From: Spirochaetota bacterium
GTDB taxonomy: Bacteria > Spirochaetota > Spirochaetia > SPDA01 > JAJSAL01
Direction of reading: 5' to 3'
DNA: 64,000 bases
Assembly: GCA_024274705.1 (NCBI GenBank)
Contig: JAJSAL010000067.1
Span: forward strand, 1 to 64,000
Part shown: one piece after another, positions 1 through 23,739 of the stretch
Position numbering within the stretch: position 1 is the stretch's first letter
Layout: the number at the start of each line of letters is the position of its first letter
Notes under the pieces: model-generated
Database searches by the model: none
What the model saw: the letters and a program-made list of their open reading frames with translations, nothing else
What the model was told of the DNA's origin: nothing
Made by a program: the position numbers and the translations under genes

Positions 1-1
1 G

Positions 2-694
2 CTGGGCTGCGGTATCATGATGCACATGGCCGATGACAGGTGGCACAACTTTGATGCCACCAGGAGATACGGCAAAAGACCTGCCCGGTACTTACGGGAC
101 ATCGGGTTCCTCGGTCCCGACGTTATCCTCTTTCATTGTTCATACATGAATCTCCTGGAAGACCCGGGGATATTTAAGGAATACGATGTAAAAATAGCCC
201 ATAACGCCGAATCCAATGCAATTTTCGGTTTCTGGCCGGACATGGTCCCCTTTATCAAGGAAGGGGTCTGTGTCGGCCTCGGAACGGACGGCCAGACCCA
301 TTCGATGTTTGAAATTATGAGGACCGCCCAGATGCTCCACAGGCTCAAGTATGAAGATCCTGAACTTCTGCCGGATTCCCAGGTCTTGAGTATGGCCACG
401 AACAAGGGAGCCCGGGCGTTACTCATGGAAGATGAAATAGGCTCCATTGAAGCCGGGAAAAAGGCGGACATTGTCCTGCTGAAGGACCGAAGTGCCGTGC
501 CAATTTTCGAAGCAAACGTTGAAAACTATATTACCGGCACGTGTGAGCGGTCCGATGTGGATACCGTCATAATCGATGGGGAAATCGTTCTCGAAAAAGG
601 TGAGTTCACCGCTGTCGATGAAGAAGCCGTCTACCGGAAATGTAAACTGGAGGCCGTCGACCTCTGGAAAAGGAATAACTGGCCTTTACCTTGA
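2..694 (+). CDS. Amidohydrolase (SsnA/TrzA/MTA-SAH deaminase-like), C-terminal part; 5' end outside window
   Basis: The frame is open from the first bases, so this is the C-terminal ~230 residues of a larger protein. Visible landmarks of the cytosolic metal-dependent amidohydrolase fold are MMHMADD (usual metal/substrate helix region), ILFHCSYMN (metal His strand), HNAESNAIFG (the HNPxSN loop) and GLGTDGQTHS with the metal-binding Asp. The C-terminal GSIEAGKKADIVLL strand is the typical return to the small beta domain. In this family ring-amino groups of purines, pterins or triazines are hydrolysed; the substrate here is not readable. It lies 69 bp upstream of the nucleoside-type binding protein and is paralogous to the amidohydrolase at 5387-6796. 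Function is inferred from family motifs; family assignment is firm, substrate is not. Confidence 0.85.
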   Translation: MGCGIMMHMADDRWHNFDATRRYGKRPARYLRDIGFLGPDVILFHCSYMNLLEDPGIFKEYDVKIAHNAESNAIFGFWPDMVPFIKEGVCVGLGTDGQTHSMFEIMRTAQMLHRLKYEDPELLPDSQVLSMATNKGARALLMEDEIGSIEAGKKADIVLLKDRSAVPIFEANVENYITGTCERSDVDTVIIDGEIVLEKGEFTAVDEEAVYRKCKLEAVDLWKRNNWPLP

Positions 695-763
695 AAATAT
701 GGATCCAATAAATCTCTCATGCCGCGGAGAGAAAAAAAGATGCGGTAGAAACAGGAGGCTATT

Positions 764-1807
764 ATGAATAGAAAAAAACTTCTCATCACCCTGGGCATAC
801 TGATTACCCTCTGTATGTTCACCACTTTCCTCTGGGCCGGAGGGGGGCAGGAACCCTCTGCAGTGGAAACCGCCCCTGAGAAACAAAAGGTCATGGCGAT
901 GGTAACCAATCAATCAGGTCTTGGGGACCAGGCGTTCAACGACGCTACCTGGGCGGGATTTAAGCTGGCCGAGGAAAAGCTGGGGATTACCCCCAAGGTC
1001 CTGGAAGCGAGGGAGCAGTCCCAGTATGTTCCCAATTTAAGCGCCTTAGCGGAACAGAAATGCGATCTTGTTGTCGGCGTGGGATTCATGATCAAGGACG
1101 CCGTTCAAGAGGTAGCTGAACTGTATCCAGATGTGAACTTCGGTCTTGTGGACGGAACCGTGGATGCACCGAATGTGGCTTGTCTCCTCTTCAATGAGAA
1201 CGAAGGTGCTTTTCTCATGGGGATCATTGCTGCAAAGATGACGAAAACCGGGACAGTCGGTTTTGTCGGGGGAATGTCCACCCCGATCACGAATAAATTC
1301 GAAGCGGGATACAGGGCCGGTGTCATGACGGTAAACCCGGATATCGATGTGTTGGTTTCCTATGCCGGTACGTTTGCAGACCCTGCGAAAGGGGAAGAAA
1401 TGGCGAATCCCCAGTACGACCAGGGGGCGGACGTTATATTTCAGGTTGCCGGCGGGACCGGAATGGGTGTCATTAACGCCGCCAAGAAGAAAAATAAGTG
1501 GGTAATAGGGGTGGACAGGGACCAGAATTATCTGGCTCCGGACAATGTTATCTCTTCCATGATAAAAAGACTCGACATTGCCGTGTTCAATGCAATTGAA
1601 ATGGTACTGGATGGAAATTTCAAGGGTGGGAAATACAGGTATGGAATCGCCGAAGGCGGTATTGATTATGCCCCCACGACAAGTAAGAATGTACCGGCGG
1701 ACATCATAACCTTCGTGGACATGGTGAAGGATAAAATAAAGAACGGGGAGATAAAACCACCGGGGACGTATGAAGAGCTGGACGCTTTCATACCGCCCTC
1801 ACTGTAG
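764..1807 (+). CDS. BMP-family (Med/BmpA) ABC substrate-binding protein, probable nucleoside binder
   Basis: 347 residues, starting at an ATG behind a good AGGAGG ribosome site. The N-terminus is an export signal (basic MNRKK, hydrophobic core, then FLWAGGGQE), a form frequent in spirochaetes; Cys17 lies inside the core and is not a convincing lipobox, so cleavage by signal peptidase I is likelier. The mature part has BMP hallmarks: QSGLGDQAFND near the start, GFVGGMSTPITNKFEAGYRAG in the hinge region and VIGVDRDQNY. BMP proteins such as PnrA/TmpC of Treponema bind purine nucleosides, so a nucleoside ligand is inferred. It opens the importer genes 1877-5394 and is separated from them by a terminator-like hairpin, which would favour excess binding protein. 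Confidence 0.93.
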   Translation: MNRKKLLITLGILITLCMFTTFLWAGGGQEPSAVETAPEKQKVMAMVTNQSGLGDQAFNDATWAGFKLAEEKLGITPKVLEAREQSQYVPNLSALAEQKCDLVVGVGFMIKDAVQEVAELYPDVNFGLVDGTVDAPNVACLLFNENEGAFLMGIIAAKMTKTGTVGFVGGMSTPITNKFEAGYRAGVMTVNPDIDVLVSYAGTFADPAKGEEMANPQYDQGADVIFQVAGGTGMGVINAAKKKNKWVIGVDRDQNYLAPDNVISSMIKRLDIAVFNAIEMVLDGNFKGGKYRYGIAEGGIDYAPTTSKNVPADIITFVDMVKDKIKNGEIKPPGTYEELDAFIPPSL

Positions 1808-1828
1808 TGTAGTCAAGATGTAAGGACA

Positions 1829-1858
1829 AGGCTGGCTGTCCCAGCCAGCCTGTTTTTA
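1829..1858 (+). terminator. Hairpin plus T-run after the binding-protein gene (partial terminator)
   Basis: Perfect 10-bp stem AGGCTGGCTG (1829-1838) / CAGCCAGCCT (1842-1851) with a 3-nt loop, followed by TGTTTTT. The next gene starts at 1877 with the same orientation and no obvious promoter between, so this is probably a leaky terminator or mRNA-stabilising hairpin giving more binding protein than transporter subunits. Confidence 0.85.
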
Positions 1859-1876
1859 CCTTAATTAAGGTCGTTT

Positions 1877-3388
1877 ATGGCACCGATTATCAGGATGGAG
1901 AATATTGTAAAACGATTTCCCGGGGGAACCGTGGCGAACAACCATGTCGATCTTGAAATCGAGGAGGGGGAAATTCACTGCCTGCTTGGAGAGAACGGTG
2001 CGGGTAAATCCACCCTTATGAATGTTCTTTACGGTTTATATGGTTTTGATTCCGGAAGAGTGTTCATAAAGGATGAAGAGGTCCGGTTTAAAAACCCATT
2101 ACAGGCGATTAAACGGGGAATTGGAATGGTGCACCAGCATTTTATGCTGGTACCTGTTTTTACAGTCACGGAAAATTTGATTCTCGGGTCTGAACCTGTT
2201 AAAGGGTTATCCCTGGATATTCCAAAAGCGGAACAGGAAATCGTACCCCTTTCCGAAAAATACGGTCTCAATATCGACCCGAAAGCGTATATTCAGGACA
2301 TTTCCGTGGGAATGCAGCAAAGGGTCGAGATACTCAAACTTCTGTACAGGGGCGCGGATATTATGATATTCGACGAACCTACCGCTATTTTAACGCCCCA
2401 GGAAGTTGAAGAGTTGTATAAAATCATGCGCTTCCTGAAAAGCCAGGGAAAGACGTTGATCTTCATTACCCATAAACTTAGGGAAGTAATGGAAATATCC
2501 GATCGTGTAACGGTGTTAAGGGATGGCAGGGGTATCAGCACTATAGAAACGGAAGCTACCAATCCCAAGGAACTCGCAAAAAAGATGGTTGGCCGGGAAG
2601 TTTTGTTTCGGGTTGATAAACCGGTGGTACATAGAGGGAAAAAAGTTCTGCATGTCCTGGATGTTCATGTGAATAACCAGCGGGGACTCCCCGCGTTGAA
2701 TGGAATCAGTTTTAATGTCTGTGAGGGTGAAGTAGTCGGTATCGCGGGAATAGACGGAAACGGACAAACCGAGCTCGTGGAGGTTCTTACAGGTCTTCGG
2801 GATGTGGAGGCCGGAAGGATTGTGCTGGAGGGGACGGAACTTACCCATAAGAACCCGAAAGCTTACCTTGCCGCAGGGGTCGCGCATATTCCGGAAGACA
2901 GGCAGCTCCGGGGACTTATTCTTGAGTTCCCTCTTTATGAAAACATGCTGCTGGGCTACCAGGATACGGCCCCATTTGCAAAAGGCCCTGTTCTCGATAT
3001 CAAGAAAGCAAGAGAGTGGGCGGTGGAAAGTATAAAAAAATACGATGTTCGTGCGCCGGGTGTGGATTCCGCCGCGGGAACGCTTTCCGGTGGAAATCAG
3101 CAAAAACTGGTGATTGCGAGAGAGTTTCAGAGGGATCCAAAGCTCCTCCTTGCGGCGCAGCCGACAAGGGGGCTCGATGTGGGTGCAACCGAGTTTGTAC
3201 ATAATCAAATAATGGATATTAAAAAACAGGGGAAAGCCGTTCTCCTGGTCTCTCTTGACTTAAGTGAAATTATGAACCTGAGTGACAGGATTCTCGTTAT
3301 CTTTGAGGGGGAAATTCGGGGAGAGTTTTCAGGGACGGAAGCGAAAGAATCGGAACTTGGTTTGATAATGGCCGGAGGGCATCGCTGA
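1877..3388 (+). CDS. Nucleoside/sugar ABC importer ATPase with two fused ABC domains (NupO/YufO type)
   Basis: 503 residues with two nucleotide-binding domains. The first has Walker A GENGAGKST (about residues 38-46), the signature-like SVGMQQRVEILK and Walker B IMIFDEPTAILTP. The second has a degenerate P-loop GIDGNGQTE, a good signature LSGGNQQKLVIARE and LLLAAQPTRGLDVGA where the Walker B acidic residue region is altered. This asymmetry (degenerate second P-loop) is normal for the CUT2/BMP importer ATPases. With the two permeases that follow (1-bp gap, then overlap) and the binding protein before it, it forms a complete importer. It acts at the cytoplasmic face of the inner membrane to energise uptake; a nucleoside substrate is inferred from the BMP partner. 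Confidence 0.95.
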   Translation: MAPIIRMENIVKRFPGGTVANNHVDLEIEEGEIHCLLGENGAGKSTLMNVLYGLYGFDSGRVFIKDEEVRFKNPLQAIKRGIGMVHQHFMLVPVFTVTENLILGSEPVKGLSLDIPKAEQEIVPLSEKYGLNIDPKAYIQDISVGMQQRVEILKLLYRGADIMIFDEPTAILTPQEVEELYKIMRFLKSQGKTLIFITHKLREVMEISDRVTVLRDGRGISTIETEATNPKELAKKMVGREVLFRVDKPVVHRGKKVLHVLDVHVNNQRGLPALNGISFNVCEGEVVGIAGIDGNGQTELVEVLTGLRDVEAGRIVLEGTELTHKNPKAYLAAGVAHIPEDRQLRGLILEFPLYENMLLGYQDTAPFAKGPVLDIKKAREWAVESIKKYDVRAPGVDSAAGTLSGGNQQKLVIAREFQRDPKLLLAAQPTRGLDVGATEFVHNQIMDIKKQGKAVLLVSLDLSEIMNLSDRILVIFEGEIRGEFSGTEAKESELGLIMAGGHR

Positions 3389-3389
3389 T

Positions 3390-4481
3390 ATGAAAAAAGA
3401 ACCGCTACTGGGAAGATTATTGGAGGACAATACCCTGTTTTCGGTTTTTAAGGTAGTTGTTACGATAATCCTCGCCCTCCTTTTTGGTTTTCTCATCCTT
3501 TTTCTAACACGCTACAATCCTGTTGAAGCGTATGCAGCTCTTTTCAGGGGGGCTTTCGGCAGCAAACGGGGATTCGGGGAAACCGTCCTTTCCACGACAC
3601 CCCTTCTGTTCAGCGGCCTGGGCTTCGCTCTCGCTTACCAGTGTAAACTTTTCAATATCGGGCTTGAGGGCCAGATTGCAATGGGCGGGCTGGTAGCCGC
3701 TTTCCTTGGGTATTCGATTACGGGTCTTCCGCCGTTCCTCCATCTTCCGGTTTGTATCCTCGGGGCGGCTCTTGCCGGTGCCGTATGGGGTTTCGGACCG
3801 GGGTACCTGAAGGCCCGGTACGGTATCCATGAAGTAATAAGTGTTATTATGATGAATCACATCGCATTCAAAATAAGCGCGTACATGGTTTCCGTCCAGG
3901 GGCCCATGAAAGACAGGCTGGATGAAATGCCTGCCTCACCGTTTGTTATGGACTCCGCAAAGATTATCAGGATATGGAAAGGCACCCGTCTCCATTGGGG
4001 GATTTTTATAGCTGTCGGTGTAAGTGTTCTTGTCTGGTTCTTGTTGTATAAAACGCGGACCGGTTACAAAATCCGGGCTGTAGGCAAGAACCGGTTCGCA
4101 GCTGAGACCGGAGGAATCGATGTCAAACGTCATATTATCCTGGCAATGTCTCTAAGCGGTGCTCTTGGTGGTCTTGCCGGAGGAGTGGAAATACTTGGAA
4201 TGCACTACAGGCTCTTCTCCGCTTTTTCACCGGGATACGGTTTCGATGCGATAGCTGTCGCTCTTCTCGGCATGCTCAATCCCTTCGGTATTATAGGATC
4301 GGCTTTTCTTTACGGTGTTCTACGGAGCGGATCGATCCTGATGCAGGCCATGGTCGGCGTAAGCAAAGACATGGTATCTGTCATTACTGCGATAATCATC
4401 TTTTTTATGGGGGTGGGTGATCCCCTGGGCAGGGTCATCCAGGAAAAAATGGTAAGGAAAAGGCATGGAGCTGTTAAGTAA
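3390..4481 (+). CDS. ABC importer permease 1 (NupP/YufP type, BPD_transp_2)
   Basis: 363 residues with about nine hydrophobic segments and an N-terminal basic tail. The signature stretch LFNIGLEGQIAMGG (near residue 90) and the C-terminal ALGGLAGGVEILGMHYR are typical of branched-chain/BMP-type permeases. It begins 1 bp after the ATPase stop and overlaps the next permease by 17 bp, which points to translational coupling. It would form the heterodimeric membrane channel with the protein encoded at 4465-5394. Confidence 0.94.
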   Translation: MKKEPLLGRLLEDNTLFSVFKVVVTIILALLFGFLILFLTRYNPVEAYAALFRGAFGSKRGFGETVLSTTPLLFSGLGFALAYQCKLFNIGLEGQIAMGGLVAAFLGYSITGLPPFLHLPVCILGAALAGAVWGFGPGYLKARYGIHEVISVIMMNHIAFKISAYMVSVQGPMKDRLDEMPASPFVMDSAKIIRIWKGTRLHWGIFIAVGVSVLVWFLLYKTRTGYKIRAVGKNRFAAETGGIDVKRHIILAMSLSGALGGLAGGVEILGMHYRLFSAFSPGYGFDAIAVALLGMLNPFGIIGSAFLYGVLRSGSILMQAMVGVSKDMVSVITAIIIFFMGVGDPLGRVIQEKMVRKRHGAVK

Positions 4482-5394
4482 GTTATTCAACCTGATAATA
4501 GTAGCTTCCACTTTGAGAATCGCCACGCCGATTCTGCTTGCTTCCCTTGGGGGTGTCATGTCCGAAAGGTCCGGGGTGATCAATATCGGGCTCGAGGGAA
4601 TGATGCTGATGGGCGCGTTTGCGGCAGCAGCGGGATCGTATTTTTTAGGACCTTGGCCGGGGCTTCTCTTCGGAGTTCTTGTCGGCGGCCTGATGGGATT
4701 GGTCCATGCCTTTATGAGTGTTACTGTAAGGGCGAACCAGATAATCAGTGCGACAGCCATTAATATTCTTGCCGTGGGACTGCCTAACATTCTTGTTCCG
4801 ATAATCTGGCCGGGGCATTTTGCCATGACCCCTGTCGTTCCAGTAATAAATGACATCAATATTCCCATTATTGAGAATATTCCTGTGATTGGCCCGGTTA
4901 TAGGGCACCAGAACCCGATCGTGTATATCGCATTTATCCTGGTACCGGTTATTCATTTTGTATTGTTCAAAACCCGCCTGGGGCTGCGAATTCGATCTGT
5001 TGGAGAGCATCCGCGTGCTGCCGACACCCTTGGCGTCAATGTCTATAGAATGCGTTACATCGCGGTAACAACCAGCGGTTTACTCGCCGGTTTGGGCGGG
5101 GCATTCCTCTCCATTGCATACCAGTCACAATTCTCGATGGCAATGACCGCCGGGCGGGGTTTTATCGGTTTAGCCGCAATGATTTTCGGCAGGTGGAAAC
5201 CCTTCGGCGCATTGATCGCGTGCCTTATCTTTGGATTTGCCGATGCTTTTCAGGCGGCGGCCCAGGCCGCCGGTGTTCCCGTGCCCCCGGATTTGTTCCT
5301 TGCCCTCCCTTACGTTCTGACCCTGGTCGCCCTGGTTGGGCTCGCCGGTAAAACAGCTGTCAGCCCTGCTGCGAATGGAAAACCATATGTTTGA
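4465..5394 (+). CDS. ABC importer permease 2 (NupQ/YufQ type, BPD_transp_2)
   Basis: 309 residues, multi-spanning. The diagnostic VINIGLEGMMLMGAF lies near residue 40 and the C-terminal part has GRGFIGLAAMIFGRWKPFGAL, both characteristic of the second permease of BMP-type nucleoside importers. The start overlaps the preceding permease by 17 bp and the stop overlaps the following amidohydrolase start by 8 bp (ATGTTTGA), so the transporter and the first catabolic enzyme are translationally linked. That link is the best evidence that the amidohydrolase acts on the imported compound. Confidence 0.94.
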   Translation: MELLSKLFNLIIVASTLRIATPILLASLGGVMSERSGVINIGLEGMMLMGAFAAAAGSYFLGPWPGLLFGVLVGGLMGLVHAFMSVTVRANQIISATAINILAVGLPNILVPIIWPGHFAMTPVVPVINDINIPIIENIPVIGPVIGHQNPIVYIAFILVPVIHFVLFKTRLGLRIRSVGEHPRAADTLGVNVYRMRYIAVTTSGLLAGLGGAFLSIAYQSQFSMAMTAGRGFIGLAAMIFGRWKPFGALIACLIFGFADAFQAAAQAAGVPVPPDLFLALPYVLTLVALVGLAGKTAVSPAANGKPYV

Positions 5395-6796
5395 TATTTT
5401 GATTAAGAACTGCTGTGCCGTGACAATGGATAACAGTCGCCGGATTATCGATGGGTGTTCAATCGGGATAAAAGACCACCTGATTATGGATGTCGGGAGA
5501 GATGTGCCGGAAAACGCGGAAGAAATCATAGATGGCTCTTCATGCTTTGCCCTGCCGGGACTGGTTAATTGTCATACCCACGTTTACCAGTCTCTCATTA
5601 AAGGGGTGGGGTATGACATGCATTTCAACCCATGGAATATCAGGTACCTGGTTCCTATTATTTCCCATATGGGTCCGGATCATGCGAGGGCGAGTGCGGA
5701 ACTGGCGGCACTGGAAATGATAAAAAGCGGGACAACGGCGTTCTCCGACCACTGGTATCTGCATACCGATTTCAGAAATATCGAGGAAGTTGCGGCTGGT
5801 TTCGACCGTGCGGGACTCCGGAATCACGCCGTGTTCGGGTTCTTAAACGAAAGTTTCGCCGGGCGAAAAAATGGAAACACCGAGGCGGATGTTCTCAAAG
5901 GGGAAGAACAATTACTCGCCCAGGCGGAAAGGTTTGTAAAGACCTGGAACGGCAGAAACCTGACCACCGCCGCATTAGGGCCGGGTTCCACGGAAGATGT
6001 GAGCCGTGAGCTTTTCAAAGAAATTATCGGTTTAAGCCGGAAACTGGACGTTTCGGTTGTTACCCACATCTCAGGCTGGGTCGAGATCGTCTCCCGCTCA
6101 TTGGAAAAACACCATTTGAGGGATTTCGAGTACGCCCATTCCCTCGGTTTTACGGGACCTAGGTCAATTGCAATTCACTGTGTCTGGCTCTCCGAGGAAG
6201 AGATCGCCATCGCGGCTGAGACAGGAACGATGGTTGTGCATAACCCGGTTGCGAATATGCATCTCGGGTATGGAATAGCACCCGTACCGGAAATGATTTC
6301 CCGGGGGGTGACCGTCGGGCTTGGTACCGACGGAGCGGCAAGCTACACGTATGACATGTTCGAAATAGGTAAAACCGCCGCGATGCTGCAGAAGGTGCGC
6401 ACACTGAATCCGGAAGCTTTAACCGCGGAGAAAGCCCTCGAAATGATGACCCTGGACGGAGCAAAGGTGCTCGGACTGGACGGGCTCGTCGGGTCTATTG
6501 AGAAGGGGAAACGGGCGGATATCATCCTTGTAAAGAGGGGAACTCCCCATCTCCTTAAGGGGGGGCGCCCGGTCCCGCAAATCGTCTACAGTACGGGAGG
6601 CCCGGATGTAATAACTTCCATTATTGACGGAATCATCGTCATGCGAAACAGGGAAGTGCTCACGTTGAACGAGGGGGAAGTTCTGGCGCGAGCCCAGAAC
6701 ATGCGGGATGAACTGCTTAAGGCAGGCGGCAATGACACGGACATGTTGCTCAAAGCGCCATGGCCTGCGGGAAAAGCTTCATGGAGGATGCCCTAG
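5387..6796 (+). CDS. Amidohydrolase, SsnA/atrazine-chlorohydrolase/SAH-deaminase-like
   Basis: About 469 residues from the ATG at 5387 (MFDILIKN); ATGs at 5375 and 5336 are in frame but lie deeper inside the permease gene and lack a better ribosome site. Metal-site motifs are complete: NCHTHVYQS (HxH), VVTHISGWVE, AIHCVWLSEEE, HNPVANMHLGYG and GLGTDGAASYTYDMFE with the metal Asp. The family hydrolytically deaminates or dechlorinates aromatic nitrogen rings (guanine, S-adenosylhomocysteine, s-triazines). Together with the partial copy at the left edge, the operon contains two related enzymes. The product feeds, by inference, into the redox enzymes that follow. Substrate cannot be named from sequence. 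Confidence 0.9.
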   Translation: MFDILIKNCCAVTMDNSRRIIDGCSIGIKDHLIMDVGRDVPENAEEIIDGSSCFALPGLVNCHTHVYQSLIKGVGYDMHFNPWNIRYLVPIISHMGPDHARASAELAALEMIKSGTTAFSDHWYLHTDFRNIEEVAAGFDRAGLRNHAVFGFLNESFAGRKNGNTEADVLKGEEQLLAQAERFVKTWNGRNLTTAALGPGSTEDVSRELFKEIIGLSRKLDVSVVTHISGWVEIVSRSLEKHHLRDFEYAHSLGFTGPRSIAIHCVWLSEEEIAIAAETGTMVVHNPVANMHLGYGIAPVPEMISRGVTVGLGTDGAASYTYDMFEIGKTAAMLQKVRTLNPEALTAEKALEMMTLDGAKVLGLDGLVGSIEKGKRADIILVKRGTPHLLKGGRPVPQIVYSTGGPDVITSIIDGIIVMRNREVLTLNEGEVLARAQNMRDELLKAGGNDTDMLLKAPWPAGKASWRMP

Positions 6797-8569
6797 GTGG
6801 CCAGGTACGGCAAACTGTTACGAATCGATTTACACTCGGCCTCATGGATGGTGGAACCGATTTCGAAAAGGGACGAACGTAAATTCCTCGGTGGAAAGGG
6901 GTTGGGAACCGCCTATCTTGTCCGGGAACTGGCGGCGGGGACAGACCCCCTTGGACCGGGGAACAAGATGATCCTGGCTGCAGGCCCTTTGACCGGTACT
7001 TCCGCTCCCGGGTCCTCCAGGTTTGAAATCGTAACGAAGTCTCCCCTGACCGGAATATATCTCGACTGCAACTCCGGGGGACACTTCGGCCAGGAACTGA
7101 AGGCAACCGGTTTCGATATGGTTATTCTCGAGGGCGTTTCACCGGCCCCGGTTATCGTGTCCATAAGAAACGATTCGGTAACATTTCTCGATGCTTCCGG
7201 CGTATGGGGGAAGAATATATATGAGACCGAAAACGAAGTACGAAGGATGGTGGGCGACCCGGAAGCGAGGGTCCTCTCCATCGGGCCTGCCGGGGAAAAC
7301 CTGGTAAAGTTCGCTTCCCTGTCCAATGATTATTCGAGAAATGCGGCACGGGGGGGCGGAGGCGCGGTACTAGGTTCGAAAAAAGTAAAAGCTATTGCAG
7401 TCCGCGGGACCCGGGACATTCCCGTTGTAAACTTACGTGCTTTCCAGGAAACCGTCGAAAGAGCGAAACAAATAATTTTCAACAATCCATGGGTCCCGGA
7501 CCAGCGGAGATACGGTACGCCCAGGGCTGCGGGGCCGGTAAATGAGAACGGTCTAATGCCGGTAGATAACTTCAGAAGCGGAAAAGCTTCCTCCGTAGAA
7601 GCGATAAACGCTAACGCTTTCGAGGCGCTGACATTTAAGCGGCTCTCCTGCGGTGAATGCCCGGTGGCGTGTTCGAAAGGATACAGGAAGAATGAGGTTC
7701 GCCTGGAAGGACCGGAATATGAAACCATCGCCCTTTTCGGTCCCAACATGGGGCTGTTCGATCCGGAATGCATCGCCGAAATAAACTACTGGTGCAACCA
7801 GTACGGTATCGATACCATCACCGCGGGTTCCCTGATCGGGGCGGTCCTGGAAACAGGGGTGGTCGGGATCCCAGGGAATACACCAAAACACGAAATAGTA
7901 AAGGATACCCTTCATGCGATTACCTTCCGCCAGGGGACCGGGGATATCCTGGCAGAGGGTCCCAGGATCGCCGGAAGGGAACTTGGTATTGAATACTTTG
8001 TCCCTGAAATTAAAGGGATGGGATTCCCCGGATATGATCCCCGCTGTTCTCACGGTACCGCACTCGCGTATATGACTGCCGACAGGGGAGCATGCCATCT
8101 CCGGGCATGGCCTTTGGGAAGGGAACTGGGAGGTACCTGGGAAGAGGACGATCTTGACGGCAGGATTATGTTCGTAAAAGAACAGCAGGATGAAAAAGCT
8201 GCCCAAGAGAGCACCATCGTATGCCAGTTTCCATACGGTATCGGTCTCCTGGATCCTGTTCTGGCCGAACTGATAAGTCTCTCTACCGGAGAAGAATGGA
8301 CACTGGATACGATGAAGGAAGCAGGTGAGAGGACCTGGAATCTTGCAAGGGTATTCAATGTACGGGAAGGGATAACACGGGGGGATGATTATCTTCCCGG
8401 GAAGTTCTCACAGGACGGGATAGAATCGGGTCCTCTTAAGGGAAAAGTTATAAGCCGGGGGGACCAGGATTATATGCTTGATACGTACTACGCGTATCGC
8501 GGCTGGACTGCCGACGGGATACCTACAGGGGAAACACTGAAACGATTGGAAATAGAGGAAGAGACGTGA
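6797..8569 (+). CDS. Aldehyde ferredoxin oxidoreductase family protein (tungstopterin enzyme)
   Basis: 590 residues, GTG start at 6797 with GGAGG at 6783-6787, directly after the amidohydrolase stop. N-terminal FLGGKGLGTAYLV is the pterin-binding start of the AOR fold. Cluster ligands for one [4Fe-4S] are visible: SCGECPVACS gives Cys285, Cys288 and Cys292, and IVCQF gives Cys476, matching the 288/291/295/494 arrangement of the archaeal enzyme. DRGACHLRA is also conserved in the family. AORs use a tungsten bis-pterin cofactor to oxidise aldehydes to acids with ferredoxin as acceptor. The next gene, overlapping by 4 bp, is a ferredoxin-type protein that is the obvious partner. The true aldehyde is unknown; a deoxy- or ring-derived aldehyde from the imported compound is only inference. 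Confidence 0.93.
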   Translation: MARYGKLLRIDLHSASWMVEPISKRDERKFLGGKGLGTAYLVRELAAGTDPLGPGNKMILAAGPLTGTSAPGSSRFEIVTKSPLTGIYLDCNSGGHFGQELKATGFDMVILEGVSPAPVIVSIRNDSVTFLDASGVWGKNIYETENEVRRMVGDPEARVLSIGPAGENLVKFASLSNDYSRNAARGGGGAVLGSKKVKAIAVRGTRDIPVVNLRAFQETVERAKQIIFNNPWVPDQRRYGTPRAAGPVNENGLMPVDNFRSGKASSVEAINANAFEALTFKRLSCGECPVACSKGYRKNEVRLEGPEYETIALFGPNMGLFDPECIAEINYWCNQYGIDTITAGSLIGAVLETGVVGIPGNTPKHEIVKDTLHAITFRQGTGDILAEGPRIAGRELGIEYFVPEIKGMGFPGYDPRCSHGTALAYMTADRGACHLRAWPLGRELGGTWEEDDLDGRIMFVKEQQDEKAAQESTIVCQFPYGIGLLDPVLAELISLSTGEEWTLDTMKEAGERTWNLARVFNVREGITRGDDYLPGKFSQDGIESGPLKGKVISRGDQDYMLDTYYAYRGWTADGIPTGETLKRLEIEEET

Positions 8570-8943: not shown

Positions 8944-8954
8944 AAGAGAGATTT

Positions 8955-10034: not shown

Positions 10035-12040
10035 TGTACAAGAGAAAAAAACTTTCCGAAAAAGAGCTGATCGAAGCTGCGTCCCGGATGAGATACTACA
10101 TTCTGCTCAGCATCTATGCGGCCCGTTCGGGACATCCCGGGGGTTCACTCTCTATCGCGGATATAACTGCGGCTTTATACTTGCACGAAGCGGTCCTGTA
10201 CCCGGACAACCCGGGACATCCCCGTCGGGACAGGATCATTTTTTCCGCGGGGCACAAGGCACCGGCCCAGTATGCGGGCCTTGGAATGGCCGGTTTTTTC
10301 GATATCAGGGAAATGGTTGCTTTAAGAAAATTCGGAAGCCCTTTCCAGGGTCACCCGCATGCGCCGGACCTTCCCGGTATTGAAGTGTCTACCGGGTCCC
10401 TTGGGCAGGGGCTGAGTGTAGCCTGCGGGATCGCCCTGTCGTTAAAACTGAAAGAAGAAGAAAACCGGGTTTTCTGTATAATGGGAGACGGAGAGCAGCA
10501 GGAGGGTAGTATCTGGGAAGCAGCCATGGCAGCGGGGAATTACAGCCTTGATAACATTATCGGTATTGTCGACAGAAACAGGCTTCAGATCGACGGTGAA
10601 GTCGATTCTCTAATGAATGTTTCCCCGTTGGATGAAAAATACCGGAGTTTCGGATGGAACGCGCTGGTCATCGACGGCCACGACATGGGGGAAATACTCG
10701 GGGCATTCAGGGCCGCGAAGAAAACCGTGGGACGGCCCACCGTTATCATAGCTGAAACGGTAAAAGGCAAAGGGGTCTCTTTCATGGAGAACAAGGTTGA
10801 ATGGCACGGCAAGGCTCCCGGGGATGAAAACCAGCTGTTACGCGCCCTGGAAGAACTTCCTTTTCAGCCGATGTCCTGGGAAGAAGCACGGGACAGCTTA
10901 CGGAAAATCGAGTGTTCCGCCGGGGAAAAAACAAAAAGTGTTCAGGAAAAAGTTCCCGCCTATTCCGTGGATTACTGGTGGAATCAGAGGGAAGTGATGC
11001 GGGCCCGGATGCAACCGAACCGGGATGGTTTCGGAAAGGGGCTTGCAGCAGCGGGAAAGGACAAACGGGTTGTAACAATCCACGCGGATATTTCAGATTC
11101 GATAAAAATAACCGAGTTTGAAAAAGCCGGTCCCTCTAGACGAACCAGGGTGTTAAACGCAGGGATAGCGGAACAGGACATGATAACAATGGCCGCGGGA
11201 CTGGCAAAGGAAGGATGGATCCCGGTTGCGGGAACCTACGGGGTCTTCGCCGCGGGAAGACCCTGGGACCAGATTCGAACAACCGTGTGCAACGACAATT
11301 TAAATGTAAAGATTATCGGGGCTCATGGGGGTATTTCCGTCGGACCTGATGGGGGAACACACCAGGCCCTCGAGGATATCTCGCTGATGCAGATCCTACC
11401 GAACATGCATGTCGGTGTACCCTGTGATGCGGAGGAAGCCGGGAAAATGACGGAGCACATGATCCTGAAGGTAGACGGCCCCTGTTATCTCCGGTTAGCC
11501 AGGGAAAGCACCCCGGTTGTAACCGGCGGGGATACGGTTTTTCAGTTTGGAAATGCGAATGTAATACGCTTCAGGGGCGAACAGGAGCGTTTTGAGAATG
11601 CCTTCTCCATCACCCTGGCGAGGGATTATGAAAATGAAGGGGAAGCCGTCACAATGATCGCCTGCGGGCCCATTGTTACGGAGGTGATGAGGGCTGCGTA
11701 TATACTGAAAAGGGAACAGGAAATAGAAGCACGTATTCTCAATGTACATACGGTGAAGCCTCTGGATGTGGAGGCTGTAACCCGGGCAGCGGATGAAACC
11801 GGGAGTATACTGGTATGCGAAGAACACCAGGTTGGCGGGTTCGGAAATCTTGTGGCTGCTTGCATCCTGAATACCGGCAAAACTCTTGTACAATGCAGTT
11901 TCGGTATGGTAGGAGTACAGGACACGTTCGGTGTTTCCGGGACCGTTAAAGAACTATTTCATGCATTTGAAATTTCCGCGGAATTTATCGCGGAAAAAGC
12001 CCTCTCCCTCCTGGGGAAAGGGACTAGGGGGAACAAGTGA
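10034..12040 (+). CDS. tkt: Transketolase, single-chain, full length
   Basis: About 668 residues; I prefer the ATG at 10034 (TAATG overlap with the previous stop, GGAG at 10023-10026) over the in-frame ATG at 10028. The N-terminal half has HPGGSLSIAD and the thiamine-diphosphate motif GDGEQQEGSIWEA ... NRLQIDG. The C-terminal half has IAEQDMITMAAGLA and GAHGGISVGPDGGTHQALED, the pyrimidine-binding and transketolase C-terminal parts. It transfers two-carbon ketol units between sugar phosphates. Its place inside an uptake/catabolic operon, rather than with pentose-phosphate genes, suggests that the sugar part (ribose) of a nucleoside is processed here; this is inference. It overlaps the downstream regulator by 4 bp. 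Confidence 0.92.
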   Translation: MYKRKKLSEKELIEAASRMRYYILLSIYAARSGHPGGSLSIADITAALYLHEAVLYPDNPGHPRRDRIIFSAGHKAPAQYAGLGMAGFFDIREMVALRKFGSPFQGHPHAPDLPGIEVSTGSLGQGLSVACGIALSLKLKEEENRVFCIMGDGEQQEGSIWEAAMAAGNYSLDNIIGIVDRNRLQIDGEVDSLMNVSPLDEKYRSFGWNALVIDGHDMGEILGAFRAAKKTVGRPTVIIAETVKGKGVSFMENKVEWHGKAPGDENQLLRALEELPFQPMSWEEARDSLRKIECSAGEKTKSVQEKVPAYSVDYWWNQREVMRARMQPNRDGFGKGLAAAGKDKRVVTIHADISDSIKITEFEKAGPSRRTRVLNAGIAEQDMITMAAGLAKEGWIPVAGTYGVFAAGRPWDQIRTTVCNDNLNVKIIGAHGGISVGPDGGTHQALEDISLMQILPNMHVGVPCDAEEAGKMTEHMILKVDGPCYLRLARESTPVVTGGDTVFQFGNANVIRFRGEQERFENAFSITLARDYENEGEAVTMIACGPIVTEVMRAAYILKREQEIEARILNVHTVKPLDVEAVTRAADETGSILVCEEHQVGGFGNLVAACILNTGKTLVQCSFGMVGVQDTFGVSGTVKELFHAFEISAEFIAEKALSLLGKGTRGNK

Positions 12041-12738
12041 TAGACGAAGTCAAAACTCTGACAATTGCCGACGCTGTAGCTGAGAAGCTGCTGGGAAGAA
12101 TATCCGATGGCCGGCTTACATGGGGGCAGAAGCTTCCTTCTCAACGAGACCTCGCAAAAATGTTGAATGTTGGTATTGCTTCACTTCGGGAGGGTCTTCA
12201 GATTCTTCAGGCGATGGGTTTTGTCGAACTCAAAAGGGGACAGGGTACATATATAACTAAAAACCCGGCAACTCCCTTTTCAAAGAACATAGCTATGTCC
12301 ATCTATTTAGATACAAATGTGCAGAACCTTATGGAGGCCCGGGAGGTCCTGGATACCGGACTTGCCGTGCTCGCCGCTAAAAAGGCGAATGGAAAGGATA
12401 TAAAGAAAATGGACGAACTTCTGCATTGCCTGGAGGAAACCGTGGCTTCCGGAGCCCGGAGTGCAATGAAAAGTGATTTAAGTTTCCATATGGCCCTGGT
12501 GGAAAGTGTAAAGAATCCGCTCCTTGAAAAGTTTTCTTATGCTATCCGGTCTTCTTTAGAAGAATTTATCGGTACTATTGCACATACGAAAAGGGGTGTT
12601 GAATTACACTGGAAAGTGTTGGAAGCGATAAAAAACAAGGATGCCATGGAAGCGAGGGACACCATGATCGAACTCTTAAAACACACAAGGCAGATATACT
12701 TGAAATACCATTACGGAAATGAGAAACGCGATGCATAG
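12037..12738 (+). CDS. FadR/GntR-family transcriptional regulator (wHTH + FCD domain)
   Basis: 233 residues, GTG start within a GTGA overlap. The N-terminal winged helix is clear (WGQKLPSQRDLAKMLNVG ... SLREGLQILQAMGFVELKRGQGTYI, residues about 25-75). The C-terminal helical FCD ligand domain contains the metal/ligand acidic-histidine positions typical of the family (DLSFHMALVESVKNPLLEKF). FadR-type regulators of catabolic operons usually bind a pathway acid and repress the operon. Being encoded in the middle of the run of genes, it probably autoregulates the same operon. No operator could be assigned by eye. Confidence 0.92.
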   Translation: MIDEVKTLTIADAVAEKLLGRISDGRLTWGQKLPSQRDLAKMLNVGIASLREGLQILQAMGFVELKRGQGTYITKNPATPFSKNIAMSIYLDTNVQNLMEAREVLDTGLAVLAAKKANGKDIKKMDELLHCLEETVASGARSAMKSDLSFHMALVESVKNPLLEKFSYAIRSSLEEFIGTIAHTKRGVELHWKVLEAIKNKDAMEARDTMIELLKHTRQIYLKYHYGNEKRDA

Positions 12739-13711
12739 TGTACTGGTGGACAGGCCCCTTAACGCTGAAGCTCTTACCCTGTTATCGAATAATGCGAGGG
12801 TTGTTGCAATATATGACGATGATAGGGAAAAGATCCGCAAAGCCCTGGCAGAAGTCGACGGTGTAATATGTTCCGCCGCTCTTAAAATGGGAGAAGAGGA
12901 AATCACTCTCGGCAAAAACCTTAAAGTAATCGGCCGCCCCGGTGCCGGGTATGATAGTGTTGATATTAAAGCGGCGACAAGGATAGGAATTCCCGTAGTC
13001 TATACTCCCGATGGGCCCACGGAATCGGTTGCGGAACATGTTATCGGGTTGATGATCATGCTCGCAAAGAAAATCCCCGTGGTTGAAAAAGCTCTGAAGG
13101 AAGAGGGGGATTTCGGAGTTCGGACCAGGGTAACGGGCATGGAATTGTTCGGGAAAACCCTGGGAATCATCGGGGCCGGCCGGATCGGCCGGCGAACGGC
13201 GGAAATCGCCTCCCTTGGGCTTGGAATGAAAATCATAGTATTCGATCCTTACATGGGCGAAAACGGTCTATCAACACAACATGAGTTCACACGCACAGAC
13301 AAGATGAAGACCTTGTTGGAAAATGCCGATTTCGTTTCCCTCCATGTCCCCTTCACCGAAGAGACAAGGAGACTTATTGGGAAAGATGAATTTAAACTCA
13401 TGAAAGAGACGGCATATTTCATCAATACCGCCAGGGGAGGTATTGTCGATGAACCCGCCCTTATCGATGCGCTTGTTTCCGGGTCAATCGCAGGGGCGGG
13501 ACTCGATGTTTTTGAAAAGGAACCTCCCGATCCTGACAATCCTCTTTTTAAGCTGGATAATACCGTTGTCACTCCCCATTTAAGCAGCTTTACCAGTGAC
13601 GGGAAGAGAAAGATGGGGGTAGCTGTCGTACAAAGCTCTTTAGACGTTCTTTCCGGAAAGGTCCCGGAGTTTATGGTAAATCCCGAAGTCTGGGAAAAAA
13701 GGCGAAAATGA
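12731..13711 (+). CDS. D-2-hydroxyacid dehydrogenase (phosphoglycerate dehydrogenase-like)
   Basis: About 326 residues from the ATG at 12731, preceded by GAGA; an in-frame ATG at 12719 adds four residues but has no spaced ribosome site. The Rossmann motif is GIIGAGRIGRRTAE, with INTARGGIVDEPALIDAL (catalytic Arg), DVFEKEPPDP (catalytic Glu) and TPHLSSFT (catalytic His). The protein lacks the C-terminal ACT domain of biosynthetic SerA, so a catabolic role in NAD-linked interconversion of a 2-keto and D-2-hydroxy acid is more likely. It overlaps the regulator gene's 3' end and the following peptidase start (ATGA). Confidence 0.92.
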   Translation: MHSVLVDRPLNAEALTLLSNNARVVAIYDDDREKIRKALAEVDGVICSAALKMGEEEITLGKNLKVIGRPGAGYDSVDIKAATRIGIPVVYTPDGPTESVAEHVIGLMIMLAKKIPVVEKALKEEGDFGVRTRVTGMELFGKTLGIIGAGRIGRRTAEIASLGLGMKIIVFDPYMGENGLSTQHEFTRTDKMKTLLENADFVSLHVPFTEETRRLIGKDEFKLMKETAYFINTARGGIVDEPALIDALVSGSIAGAGLDVFEKEPPDPDNPLFKLDNTVVTPHLSSFTSDGKRKMGVAVVQSSLDVLSGKVPEFMVNPEVWEKRRK

Positions 13712-14877
13712 ACGTAGTCGAAGAGGTGAAAAAGCTAATATCCATTCCCAGCGTAACAGGTAATGAAAAAGAGATCGGTACATACATTGCTGAAAAATTT
13801 CGTTCTCTTGGATGCCGGACAGAGATATTCCAGGTCGATAAAGACCGTTTCAATATTCTTGCGGTCCTGGGCCCGGAAAAAAATGACCCGATGGGGGTCC
13901 TTTTTCATGGACACATGGATACGGCAGCCCCCTTCGGGATGGTGTTCCCTTTCACCCCTTCCATCAGGGAGAACCATATTTGGGGAAGAGGTTCCGTGGA
14001 TCAGAAAGGCGGTATCGCAGCGGTTATATCATGTTTTGAGCAGGTTATATCTTCGGGGATGAACCTTCACAGGAAAGTCGGATTTGTATGTGTCGTGGAT
14101 GAGGAAGAGGAGCATAGGGGAAGTATGCACCTTGCCGATATGGGTATCCAGGCTGAATGTGCAATTATCACGGAACCTTCGGCTCTTAAACTCGGCATCG
14201 GATGCAAGGGTACTGTACCCATCAAAATGAGTGTCAAGGGAAAAGCGAGCCATGGGTGCAGGCCGTGGCTCGGAGAGAGTGCGGTTATTCATGGAATGAA
14301 TATCACCCGGGAATTGTTGAACAGCACACTACCGGTTTATCATGTTGAAGGTATAGGCGATACGAAGGCTACACTGAATCTCGGTATTGTGAATGGAGGT
14401 ACGGCGTATAACATGGTCCCCGGCGAGTGCGTCTTCTGGTTCGACCGGAGGCTTGTTCCCGGAGAGAACCCGAAGGAGGTCCTGGATGATTTTGAATCGC
14501 TTATCACGGGGTATGAAAGTCCCGGTGGCGTTTCTTTCAAAGTGGAAGTCGACAGGCCCGATTGGCATTGGGAGCCGATAAAGCAACGAGGTTTGCTTCC
14601 CGCACTTACTGATATCAATTCCGGGTTGGTACAAACCGTGAAAACAGCCCACAATACAATCTTAGGGACCGGTCCTGAACTTTATTTTACCGATGGATAC
14701 CAGGAAATGGATTTCCTGGTCAACGATCTTGGTATCCCTGCTGTCCAGTATGGCCCCGGTGATGGAGGCCTCTGTCACACCGATAGGGAAAGTCTCGATA
14801 TCGAACAACTGAAAACCGCCGTTTCCGTGTATAGTGAAATTGTTCGGATGCTATGCGGTGGGACCGATGAAGATTAA
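13708..14877 (+). CDS. M20-family metallohydrolase (YgeY/ArgE/DapE-like)
   Basis: 389 residues starting in an ATGA overlap. Metal-binding motifs are present: FHGHMDTAAPFG (His and Asp), WGRGSVDQKGGIAA (bridging Asp), DEEEEHRGS (catalytic and metal Glu), ITEPSALKLGIG, and LCHTDRESL near the C-terminus (last His). M20 enzymes hydrolyse amide bonds of N-acyl or N-carbamoyl amino acids. In enterobacteria the related YgeY sits in the purine-degradation cluster with SsnA and XdhD; the same combination (amidohydrolase, M20 enzyme, Mo-hydroxylase) appears here, which supports a nitrogen-ring breakdown role. The exact amide is unknown. Confidence 0.9.
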   Translation: MNVVEEVKKLISIPSVTGNEKEIGTYIAEKFRSLGCRTEIFQVDKDRFNILAVLGPEKNDPMGVLFHGHMDTAAPFGMVFPFTPSIRENHIWGRGSVDQKGGIAAVISCFEQVISSGMNLHRKVGFVCVVDEEEEHRGSMHLADMGIQAECAIITEPSALKLGIGCKGTVPIKMSVKGKASHGCRPWLGESAVIHGMNITRELLNSTLPVYHVEGIGDTKATLNLGIVNGGTAYNMVPGECVFWFDRRLVPGENPKEVLDDFESLITGYESPGGVSFKVEVDRPDWHWEPIKQRGLLPALTDINSGLVQTVKTAHNTILGTGPELYFTDGYQEMDFLVNDLGIPAVQYGPGDGGLCHTDRESLDIEQLKTAVSVYSEIVRMLCGGTDED

Positions 14878-17653
14878 CCTCGAAATAAACGGGAAGGAAT
14901 ACTCGCCTGGAATCTCCCGGGACGATATGACCCTCCTCCGTTACCTCCGGGACCGTCTTTTATTTACCGGGGCGAAAAACGGGTGCGGCGAGGGACATTG
15001 CGGTGCCTGTACCGTGATTATCGACGGTAAGGCGAAACTTTCCTGCCTGGTAAAAATGAAGACATTGGAAGGATGCCGGGTGGAAACCCCTGAAGCATTG
15101 AGCACCGGGGGCAGTGTCCACGCCATTGTGTATTCCTATGTTGCAGAAGGTGCGGTGCAGTGCGGGTTCTGTACACCGGGATGTATCATGTCGACAAAAG
15201 CCCTTCTGGACCGGGTCCCGGACCCTTCCGTACAAGAGATTCAAAAAGCCCTGACCCGCAATATATGCCGTTGTACAGGATATACAAAGATAGTGAAAGC
15301 TGTTCAAAGGGCCTCTTCCCTGATCCTGGAAGGGAGAGTATGGATCGAAAGGGAGAAGATTTTCCCCGAAACGGTAAGACCTGTGGGAGTCTCCGTGCCC
15401 CGGGTCGATGCAGTTGCGAAAGCTACAGGGGAACTTCGGTTCGCAGACGATCTTTTTTTCCCGGATATGCTCTACGCAAAGGTTTTACGAAGTGAGTACC
15501 CCCACGCGGAAATAACCGGAATTGATGTATCCCGGGCAAGAAAAACGAAAGGTGTGGCAGCAGTGCTGACAGCCGGGGATATACCGGGAAGGAACGCCTT
15601 CGGTCCCATTACGGCGGACCAACCGGTTTTCGCGGATAAAAAGGTAAGATACTTAGGGGACGCGATCGCCGCCGTATACGCGGAAACGGAATCAGCCGCT
15701 GAAGAAGCGCTGTCAAAAATATCGGTAGAGTATGCGCCCCTGCCGGTGGTGTCCACCGAGGAAAACGCACTGAAAGAGGGCGCTGTACTGCTACACGGTA
15801 CTGAAAGGACGGGTAATATCTTTTCCCATATGGAATCCGGCAGGGGCGACACCGTGCAGGGGTTTTCTGAAGCGGATATAGTGTTAGAGGGGGAATATAC
15901 GACCCAATACGTGGAACATGGATATCTCGAACCCGAATCCGGTGTCGGTGTTCCCGGGGAGAACGGGAGAATAACTATCTATGTGGGAAGCCAGGGACCG
16001 GAAGCGGATATAAAAGAAATAGCCCCGGTCCTGGGTGTCCCCGCTGAAAAAATCCATATAGCCCATATGCCCGTTGGAGGAGCCTTCGGAGGAAAAGAAG
16101 ATGTCTCCGTTCAGATAATCATCGCCCTGGGTGTGATGAAAACCGGGCGCCCTGTAAAGTATACCTTCACGAGAAGGGAATCGATCCGTACAAGCGGAAA
16201 GATAAATTCGCAACGCCTCCGTTACAAAACAGGTGTTACAAGGGATGGGAAAATAACGGCTGTAAAAGCGGAGATTCTCGCCCGTGCCGGAGCGTACGCG
16301 TCGGTAGAAGAAGCGGTTATTCTCCGTTCAGTCAGCTTCGCTGCCGGTCCGTACATGGTCCCCCACGGGGAAATCAAAGCAGACGCATACTATTGCAACA
16401 ATATGCCGACGTGTGCGATGCGGGGTTTCGGCAACCCCCCTGTGACGTTTGCGGCGGAAACCCAGATGAACCGCCTGGCCGCCCTGCTCGGCATGGACCC
16501 CTTTGAGATAAGGCTTGTAAACGCCCTGGAAGAAGGACTCCCTTCTATTACAGGTGAGAGGATTCCGTACAGTGTCGGCATTAAGAAATGCCTTAACGCA
16601 GTTCGGGATTCATTGCAGAAGGAAGAAATACCTGCTCCCCGAAAAGGTTGGAAAACAGGAGTCGGAATCGCCGCTTCATATAAGAATGTCGGTTTTGGAA
16701 TCGGCATGAATGATTCAGCAGGAGCATTCGGAAAGATAATAAAAGGTGGAAAACTGCTCCTCCGTGTAGGGAGCGTTGATATGGGTCAGGGGGCGGATAC
16801 TGCCATGGCCCAGATTGTTTCCGAAGAGGTGGGATGGCCCTATTCGATGATAGTCGTCGAGTCGGCGGATACCGACAGGGATCCCAGGGCGGGTATGACT
16901 ACCGCGTCACGCCAGACCTTTGTTTCCGGAAACGCCGTGTATGAGATGTCGAAACGGCTTAAACGGAAACTGTACGCTTTCATCGGAAAAGAATTCCATA
17001 TGCCTGTTGAAGATATCTGTATCCATGGTTCATGTGTCCGTTCACTGAAGAGGGACGCCGTTATTCTTTCTCTACCGGAACTATCCCGGCTCCTTGTAAG
17101 CCGGGGTATAGATATGTCCGAAGAGTTTCGCTACTTCGCCCCCCACACCAGTTTCAGCCTGAAAGAACCTGTCGGCGGTTATCCGAAAGGAGAAGGGCGT
17201 CTGCACGTGGCGTATTGCTTCGCTGTCCAGGCAGTTATTCTCGAAGTTAATCCCGATAGCGGGAAGGTTGTTGTTCTCAAGGTAATTGCGGCAAGTGATA
17301 CCGGCCGGCCGGTCAATCCACAGGCAGTGGAAGGTCAGATCGAAGGGGGGATTGCAATGGGGCTTGGATACGGGCTTTCAGAGGAATTTCGAATAGAAAA
17401 CGGATACATACAATCCGATTCCTACGGCAAACTGGGCTTAAGGAGGATCGGGCAGACACCTGAGATCGAGAGTATTATCGTGGAAAACCCGCACCCGGAA
17501 GGACCATACGGGGCAAAAGGGATGAGCGAGTTGACGATCTCCCTGGGCGCACCTGCGGTAGTTCACGCACTCTATAATGCTCTCGGCGTCTGGATCACTT
17601 CCCTCCCTGCGACACCGGAGAAGGTACGCAGGGCTTTAGCTGAAAACAGGTAA
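14867..17653 (+). CDS. Xanthine dehydrogenase/aldehyde oxidoreductase-like molybdoenzyme, [2Fe-2S] and Mo domains fused, no FAD domain
   Basis: About 928 residues. I choose the ATG at 14867 (MKINLEING), overlapping the peptidase stop; the in-frame GTG at 14834 would add 11 unlikely residues. Residues 1-160 carry two [2Fe-2S] clusters: CGEGHCGACTVIIDGKAKLSC and CGFCTPGCIMS ... NICRCTGY. The rest is the molybdopterin part, with GGAFGGKEDV, CAMRGFGNP and GPYGAKGMSELTISLGAP, the last holding the active-site Glu. Order and lack of FAD domain match Desulfovibrio Mop and the selenium-dependent xanthine dehydrogenase/XdhD group. The reaction would be hydroxylation of a purine-like ring or oxidation of an aldehyde. 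Last gene of the operon. Confidence 0.92.
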   Translation: MKINLEINGKEYSPGISRDDMTLLRYLRDRLLFTGAKNGCGEGHCGACTVIIDGKAKLSCLVKMKTLEGCRVETPEALSTGGSVHAIVYSYVAEGAVQCGFCTPGCIMSTKALLDRVPDPSVQEIQKALTRNICRCTGYTKIVKAVQRASSLILEGRVWIEREKIFPETVRPVGVSVPRVDAVAKATGELRFADDLFFPDMLYAKVLRSEYPHAEITGIDVSRARKTKGVAAVLTAGDIPGRNAFGPITADQPVFADKKVRYLGDAIAAVYAETESAAEEALSKISVEYAPLPVVSTEENALKEGAVLLHGTERTGNIFSHMESGRGDTVQGFSEADIVLEGEYTTQYVEHGYLEPESGVGVPGENGRITIYVGSQGPEADIKEIAPVLGVPAEKIHIAHMPVGGAFGGKEDVSVQIIIALGVMKTGRPVKYTFTRRESIRTSGKINSQRLRYKTGVTRDGKITAVKAEILARAGAYASVEEAVILRSVSFAAGPYMVPHGEIKADAYYCNNMPTCAMRGFGNPPVTFAAETQMNRLAALLGMDPFEIRLVNALEEGLPSITGERIPYSVGIKKCLNAVRDSLQKEEIPAPRKGWKTGVGIAASYKNVGFGIGMNDSAGAFGKIIKGGKLLLRVGSVDMGQGADTAMAQIVSEEVGWPYSMIVVESADTDRDPRAGMTTASRQTFVSGNAVYEMSKRLKRKLYAFIGKEFHMPVEDICIHGSCVRSLKRDAVILSLPELSRLLVSRGIDMSEEFRYFAPHTSFSLKEPVGGYPKGEGRLHVAYCFAVQAVILEVNPDSGKVVVLKVIAASDTGRPVNPQAVEGQIEGGIAMGLGYGLSEEFRIENGYIQSDSYGKLGLRRIGQTPEIESIIVENPHPEGPYGAKGMSELTISLGAPAVVHALYNALGVWITSLPATPEKVRRALAENR

Positions 17654-17929: not shown

Positions 17930-17942
17930 TTGTTGTGTGTAA

Positions 17943-23722: not shown

Positions 23723-23739
23723 GGTTGCCCCGGAACTTC

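Follow-up and report, generated by a model that had tools for sequence, protein, structure and literature searches.

What substrate is served by a run of genes that joins a nucleoside-type importer to a tungsten enzyme, a flavoprotein and a molybdenum hydroxylase? The question is raised by 14 genes at the left end of the window analysed here, the whole 64,000-nucleotide stretch (bases 1-64000 of the 96.7-kb contig C29) of the Spirochaetota genome G000, which amounts to 4.59 Mb in 198 contigs and is 96.6% complete with 7.7% contamination. We consider it fairly probable that these genes form an operon dedicated to the reductive, ferredoxin-linked catabolism of an N-heterocycle carried in a nucleoside, most likely a purine. 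The predicted products (Table 1) are an ATP-binding cassette (ABC) importer of the BMP family, two amidohydrolases (AH1 and AH2), a tungsten-type aldehyde:ferredoxin oxidoreductase (AOR), a ferredoxin, a flavoprotein resembling PreA and UacX (the PreA-like protein), a transketolase, a FadR-type regulator, a D-2-hydroxyacid dehydrogenase, an M20 amidohydrolase and a hydroxylase of the xanthine dehydrogenase type (XDH). An earlier sequence-only reading had named these families and described a co-directional run with overlaps; all the open reading frames that it listed are present on the plus strand between 2 and 17653, and Pfam and NCBIfam profile matches bear the names out.

Anaerobic reductive breakdown of purines was worked out only recently, when a pathway for uric acid was shown in 2025 with enzymes of Escherichia coli and Clostridioides difficile (PMC12507026). 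The enzymes are XdhD, YgfK or the stand-alone UacX, SsnA, HyuA, YgeW or UacY, YgeY and YgeX, and YgfK activity was detectable only together with SsnA (PMC12507026). The C. difficile XdhD and UacX, the latter a stand-alone DHO_dh protein, are proposed to use ferredoxin (PMC12507026).

Conservation of the operon

With the PreA-like protein as query, 148 relatives were searched and 84,980 species genomes were scanned. Close matches (at least 58% identity) were found only in metagenome-assembled genomes of spirochaetes, in one unassigned bacterial bin and in one bin labelled Atribacterota. The whole region is present at six other loci (L047, L048, L049, L050, L051 and L074), all with the same 13-14 genes on a single strand and in an unchanged order, and since the order recurs in this way the gene run is not due to chance. 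Partial copies are present on five contigs (L068, L069, L070, L073 and L076), and in L073 the transketolase, FadR and D-2-hydroxyacid dehydrogenase genes are missing between the PreA-like gene and M20. Only the transketolase gene changes its place: it follows either the PreA-like gene or XDH, and L051 has none. The importer, AOR, PreA-like protein and molybdenum enzyme occur together in every relative that has a close PreA-like gene and enough visible sequence, so the expected co-occurrence was seen, with the synteny kept and the genes not scattered. No further close copy appeared in a sample of 393 genomes of the phylum, and the window type is therefore rare.

The relatives also show additional genes. 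An HpaI/GarL-type aldolase is encoded directly upstream of AH1 in all five relatives with visible sequence there (L048, L049, L050, L051 and L074), and for this reason the window operon probably starts with such a gene beyond the end of the contig. A hydantoinase/dihydropyrimidinase is found in four relatives, after the transketolase in L048, L049 and L074, and also in the divergent version L052, in which a DHDPS-fold aldolase and an IlvD/EDD-type dehydratase replace the transketolase and the D-2-hydroxyacid dehydrogenase. In one relative only, L051, a pyrimidine-nucleoside phosphorylase adjoins XDH. The hydantoinases and this phosphorylase fit the ring opening that had been proposed from the sequence.

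The gaps between the genes are short or overlapping, with overlaps of 4 nt at AOR/ferredoxin, transketolase/FadR and D-2-hydroxyacid dehydrogenase/M20. A strong, terminator-like hairpin separates the genes of the binding protein and the ATPase, and a hairpin of unrelated sequence occupies the same gap in five of six orthologous loci. Because its position recurs, the 14-gene run is one operon in spite of the hairpin, which is probably an attenuation or stabilisation element after the binding-protein gene. As expected for a structure that boosts or protects the message of the binding protein, it is the position that is conserved.

A recurrent module of four enzymes

On contigs C2 and C107 of G000 there are other clusters in which an XDH is encoded together with an AOR, an SsnA-like amidohydrolase and a PreA-like protein, and these clusters have counterparts in relatives. 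The same well supported clades appear in the trees of the PreA-like protein, AH1 and AOR; they are here called type A (the window), type B (with YgeW/YgeY-like genes) and type C (with a BMP importer). The distance matrices of AOR, PreA-like protein, AH1 and XDH correlate at 0.87-0.94, a value reached by none of 2000 permutations, in a comparison where the window AH1 is partial and where the permutation leaves the effect of type confounded with common ancestry among the members of one type. Proteins of the same type in different genomes are nearer to each other than proteins of different types inside one genome. Since AOR co-evolves with the other three enzymes, it is very likely an integral part of the module. 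The set had been described as not being a textbook operon; its core is a module found in three paralogous forms and not a one-off association.

The types also differ in their active sites. The loop of the PreA-like protein reads VDY in type A, VSY in type B and THCPHMGEI in type C, and the residues of XDH at the positions of bovine E802 and R880 are E/R in type A, mostly D/R in type B and D/K in type C, as compared to Q/N in canonical XdhD. These signatures suggest that the three types act on different substrates.

Some neighbouring observations concern the module types. A type A operon lies on a 12-kb contig (L070) of the bin labelled Atribacterota and is very close to L068, which may reflect horizontal transfer or misbinning. 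The type C modules of L053 (C107 of G000, 11962-19688) and L118 adjoin genes resembling those of glycine/sarcosine/betaine reductase, among them a fused protein of 868 residues with DUF5940 and FA_synthesis domains and, by eye, GrdE-like and GrdB-like starts and a thioredoxin-reductase-like gene; hydantoinase/oxoprolinase-like genes also lie there. It is possible that type C serves a route from the ring to glycine or sarcosine reductase. L114 and L115 contain a fourth type of cluster, with XdhD-like, SsnA-like, YgeY and YgeX-like proteins and a short DHO_dh protein without an iron-sulphur domain, which resembles the C. difficile layout.

Active sites of the enzymes and the importer

The model of the PreA-like protein (predicted local distance difference test 84.5) has its best fold match in the half of dihydropyrimidine dehydrogenase that binds flavin mononucleotide (FMN) and ferredoxin-type clusters. 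The FMN TIM barrel and the ferredoxin domain are present, and the part for nicotinamide adenine dinucleotide (NAD) and flavin adenine dinucleotide (FAD) is absent. The N-x-S-C-P loop of dihydropyrimidine dehydrogenase is replaced by SFVDY, and the I-N-T motif by MDS-GP. The identification as PreA thus failed at the active site, and with the catalytic loop lost we reject a function as dihydropyrimidine dehydrogenase. Profile searches gave no homology to the YgfK barrel. The likeness to UacX is one of domain make-up.

All five equivalents of bovine E802, R880, F914, F1009 and E1261, residues of the purine-type active site, are retained in XDH. Pfam found no FAD subunit or domain in XDH or anywhere in the operon, and ferredoxin would therefore be its simplest electron partner. 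XDH shares 27% identity with E. coli XdhD and has E/R where XdhD has Q/N, so that "XdhD-like" was right for the family but loose as a label. Orthologs of AH1 score 267-279 bits as compared to a cut-off of 455.5 for the SsnA family (TIGR03314), and M20 scores 149 bits where YgeY (NF009555) requires 321. The glutamate of the HxxE motif is Asp in AH1 and Gly in AH2, which keeps the metal ligands. A canonical E. coli-type cluster with ygeW, ygeY, ssnA, ygfK, xdhD and ygfM is found elsewhere in G000 (L108, C138 5213-15256), flanked by another BMP importer; the identities to E. coli are 62% for ygeW, 47% for ygeY, 60% for ssnA, 55% for ygfK and 57% for xdhD, and its SsnA scores 611 bits. With the true orthologs there, the window XDH, AH1 and M20 are not orthologs of XdhD, SsnA and YgeY. 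The likeness to the enterobacterial ssnA-ygeY-xdhD cluster consequently holds for the functional classes, but the real uricolytic cluster of G000 is another locus.

In the transketolase, the residues for the sugar phosphate in the human enzyme are kept, and so are those for thiamine diphosphate. This agrees with the idea that it recycles sugar carbon, which is not established, as each genome has other transketolases besides the operon copy.

AOR scores 396 bits against AOR of Pyrococcus furiosus (1aor) and keeps the cysteine ligands of the cluster, E313 and H448. A ring reductase of the BamB kind is unlikely at 164 bits to BamB. The 4.6-Mb genome has about 20 AOR-family and about 12 XDH-family genes, an unusual load of molybdenum and tungsten enzymes.

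The best solved relatives of the BMP protein are Lbp (7x0r) and PnrA/TmpC (2fqw). It keeps F36, F186, D238 and K261 of PnrA, which we take to be the stacking phenylalanines and the Asp and Lys that bind the ribose. Nucleoside import, which had been proposed earlier, is thus consistent with the retained contact residues.

Proposed pathway and alternatives

From the conservation of the operon, the families, the active-site residues kept or lost and the co-evolution of the four enzymes, we infer the reaction steps, the substrate and the aldehyde of AOR as follows. The BMP transporter would import a nucleoside, and the fused iron-sulphur/molybdenum XDH would hydroxylate or dehydroxylate the base while exchanging electrons with ferredoxin. 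With electrons from the adjacent ferredoxin, the PreA/UacX-like flavoprotein would reductively dearomatise the ring; AH1 would open it and thereby draw this unfavourable step forward, in the way that SsnA assists YgfK. M20 and the hydantoinase whose gene adjoins the operon in relatives would cleave the ureido pieces. AOR would oxidise an aldehyde from the sugar or the opened fragment and return the electrons to ferredoxin, and the transketolase, the HpaI-type aldolase of relatives and the D-2-hydroxyacid dehydrogenase would process the pentose or C2/C3 fragments. The FadR-type regulator would govern the operon.

Several observations speak against this pathway. The window operon itself has no nucleoside-cleaving enzyme, and the binding protein has Asn in place of Asp27, the residue of PnrA in contact with the carbonyl of inosine. 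The altered catalytic loop of the PreA-like protein weakens the assignment of a particular ring, AH2 is without its usual catalytic Glu, and the many AOR-family genes of the genome weaken the case for a particular aldehyde substrate. YgeX is absent from the operon, and in eight genomes no protein passes its cut-off (one in G120 comes close, elsewhere in the genome); YgeW/UacY are absent from the operon as well. The end of the route must therefore differ from that of the known uric-acid route.

A variant that we regard as possible, though unlikely, is that the nucleoside is dismutated at its own cost. AOR would oxidise the sugar or a sugar-derived aldehyde and ferredoxin would pay for reduction of the base by the PreA-like protein, with AOR, ferredoxin, PreA-like protein, SsnA-like amidohydrolase and XDH as a general module used three times in one genome for different N-heterocycles. 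Payment by the sugar is suggested by the adjacency of the genes and by the aldolase and dehydratase genes of relatives. For Wolframiiraptor, a tungsten-dependent, ferredoxin-linked oxidation of sugars has been proposed (PMC9246946).

The same functional classes, the hydantoinase in four relatives and the stand-alone nature of UacX, thought to use ferredoxin (PMC12507026), could also point to a second uric-acid/xanthine cluster of the C. difficile type. XDH would then make yanthine, the PreA-like protein would be UacX, AH1 SsnA and M20 YgeY, and the rest would be incidental. This seems improbable, as XDH has E/R and not the Q/N of XdhD, the AH1 orthologs fall far below the SsnA cut-off while a true SsnA is encoded elsewhere in G000, YgeX and YgeW are absent, the genome already has the canonical cluster at C138, and AOR co-evolves with the quartet.

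There is an equally small chance that the ring does not come from a nucleoside but is, for instance, a pyridine or a vitamin-like ring. The enzyme classes of the operon are analogous to those of anaerobic nicotinate fermentation in Eubacterium barkeri, and a molybdenum hydroxylase, a ferredoxin-linked ring reductase and an amidohydrolase that opens the ring to an aldehyde would be followed by AOR and an aldolase leading to pyruvate. A ring-opened aldehyde would be a direct substrate for AOR, the HpaI aldolase fits, and the sole NCBIfam match of the binding protein is a putative B6 transporter family, at 107 bits where the cut-off is 400. The binding protein nevertheless keeps the nucleoside-contact residues, hydantoinase and M20 fit ureides, and the XDH residues are of the purine type. 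An ordinary reductive pyrimidine (Pyd) pathway supplied with pyrimidine nucleosides, in line with the PreA-like protein, the hydantoinase, M20 and the phosphorylase of L051, is very improbable given the lost N-x-S-C-P loop and N-T motif, the purine-type XDH, which is foreign to that route, and the two SsnA-type amidohydrolases.

The operon also has wider implications. The findings indicate that uncultured spirochaetes hold several parallel versions of such breakdown, with a ferredoxin-type electron supply, a built-in tungsten enzyme and active-site signatures of their own. N-heterocycles beyond uric acid may be degraded by such modules, and a plausible role would follow for part of the large number of orphan AOR genes in anaerobes. 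The genes for the binding protein, ferredoxin, PreA-like protein, AH1, XDH and AOR could serve to assay nucleoside turnover in environments free of oxygen.

Layout of the window

AH1 lacks its 5' part because the first base of the window is also that of the contig. The probable start of AH2 is 5378 or 5390 rather than the TTG at 5336, and that of XDH is its ATG (Table 1). A search of 1-19000 against Rfam gave no RNA element, and sigma-70 promoter sites were no more numerous than in shuffled sequence. Shortly after the 3' end of the operon there are an IS1182/IS5-type transposase gene, identified by its family match, and, by eye, a truncated second transposase gene (19907-21106 and 23377-23898).

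Table 1. Genes and hairpin of the operon, with positions in the window
Feature	Position	Strand	Remark
AH1, SsnA-like amidohydrolase, 5' end missing at contig end	2..694	+	groups with full-length AH1 orthologs, 100/100
BMP-family (PnrA-like) substrate-binding protein	764..1807	+	Pfam Bmp 262 bits
Terminator-like hairpin, binding-protein/ATPase gap	1829..1851	+	position conserved, sequence not
ABC transporter ATP-binding protein, BMP-type double ATPase	1877..3388	+	
ABC permease 1	3390..4481	+	
ABC permease 2	4465..5394	+	
AH2, amidohydrolase of the S-adenosylhomocysteine/8-oxoguanine deaminase group	5378..6796	+	HxxE Glu replaced by Gly (HISGW)
AOR, tungsten type	6797..8569	+	Pfam AFOR_N and AFOR_C present
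Polyferredoxin-like protein (4Fe-4S)	8566..8943	+	
PreA/UacX-like flavoprotein, FMN TIM barrel and two 4Fe-4S	8955..10034	+	no FAD/NAD domain, catalytic Cys loop lost
Single-chain transketolase	10028..12040	+	NCBIfam PRK05899.2-5 610 bits, cut-off 488
FadR/GntR-family regulator, FCD domain	12037..12738	+	
D-2-hydroxyacid dehydrogenase, phosphoglycerate dehydrogenase/glyoxylate reductase group	12719..13711	+	
M20 amidohydrolase, ArgE/DapE type	13708..14877	+	YgeY-like, below cut-off
XDH, fused 2Fe-2S and molybdenum-subunit hydroxylase	14867..17653	+	no FAD subunit

Comparison with known systems

We compared the operon with four kinds of known system. The BMP protein shares its fold family and the ribose and stacking residues with the importers PnrA of Treponema pallidum and BmpD of Borrelia burgdorferi, but differs in the exchange at Asp27 and in being joined to catabolic genes. 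Like PydAc (PMC7332683), the PreA-like protein has FMN and ferredoxin domains and no FAD/NADPH part, and PydAc of Clostridium chromiireducens accepts reduced ferredoxin (PMC7332683). In Clostridium pasteurianum PydAc is encoded in two reading frames with a separate ferredoxin, as in the window, where the ferredoxin gene precedes the PreA-like gene; judged by domains and gene order, the pair matches the ferredoxin-dependent PydAc layout. The pyrimidine-binding, catalytic loop of PydAc is missing, which implies a different ring substrate.

An uncharacterised DHODH-type dehydrogenase (X1) was predicted in 2013 beside hyuA, ygeY, ssnA and xdhABC (PMC4016543). A DHODH-superfamily protein is thus shared with the window, and the passages considered here mention no AOR, BMP importer or transketolase in this neighbourhood. 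We found no description of an AOR joined to purine or nucleoside clusters in the open literature, and such absence is weak evidence.

The remaining comparison is with the uric-acid clusters, ygeW-X-Y-hyuA-ygfK-ssnA-xdhD of E. coli and the UacX/UacY variant of C. difficile. The molybdenum hydroxylase, SsnA-type amidohydrolase and M20 are common to these and the window, the DHO_dh-type ring reductase appears, by its domain make-up, to be common to the C. difficile form, and the hydantoinase is shared by relatives of the window. The differences are the XDH active site, AH1 and M20 below their family cut-offs, and the lack of YgeX and YgeW/UacY. The window adds the BMP importer, AOR, an extra ferredoxin, transketolase, D-2-hydroxyacid dehydrogenase and, in relatives, the HpaI aldolase. 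To judge from these proteins, the operon is related to the reductive uric-acid clusters, in a ferredoxin-style form, but does not belong to them; it is real and conserved, and AOR is a new element within clusters for reductive N-heterocycle degradation.

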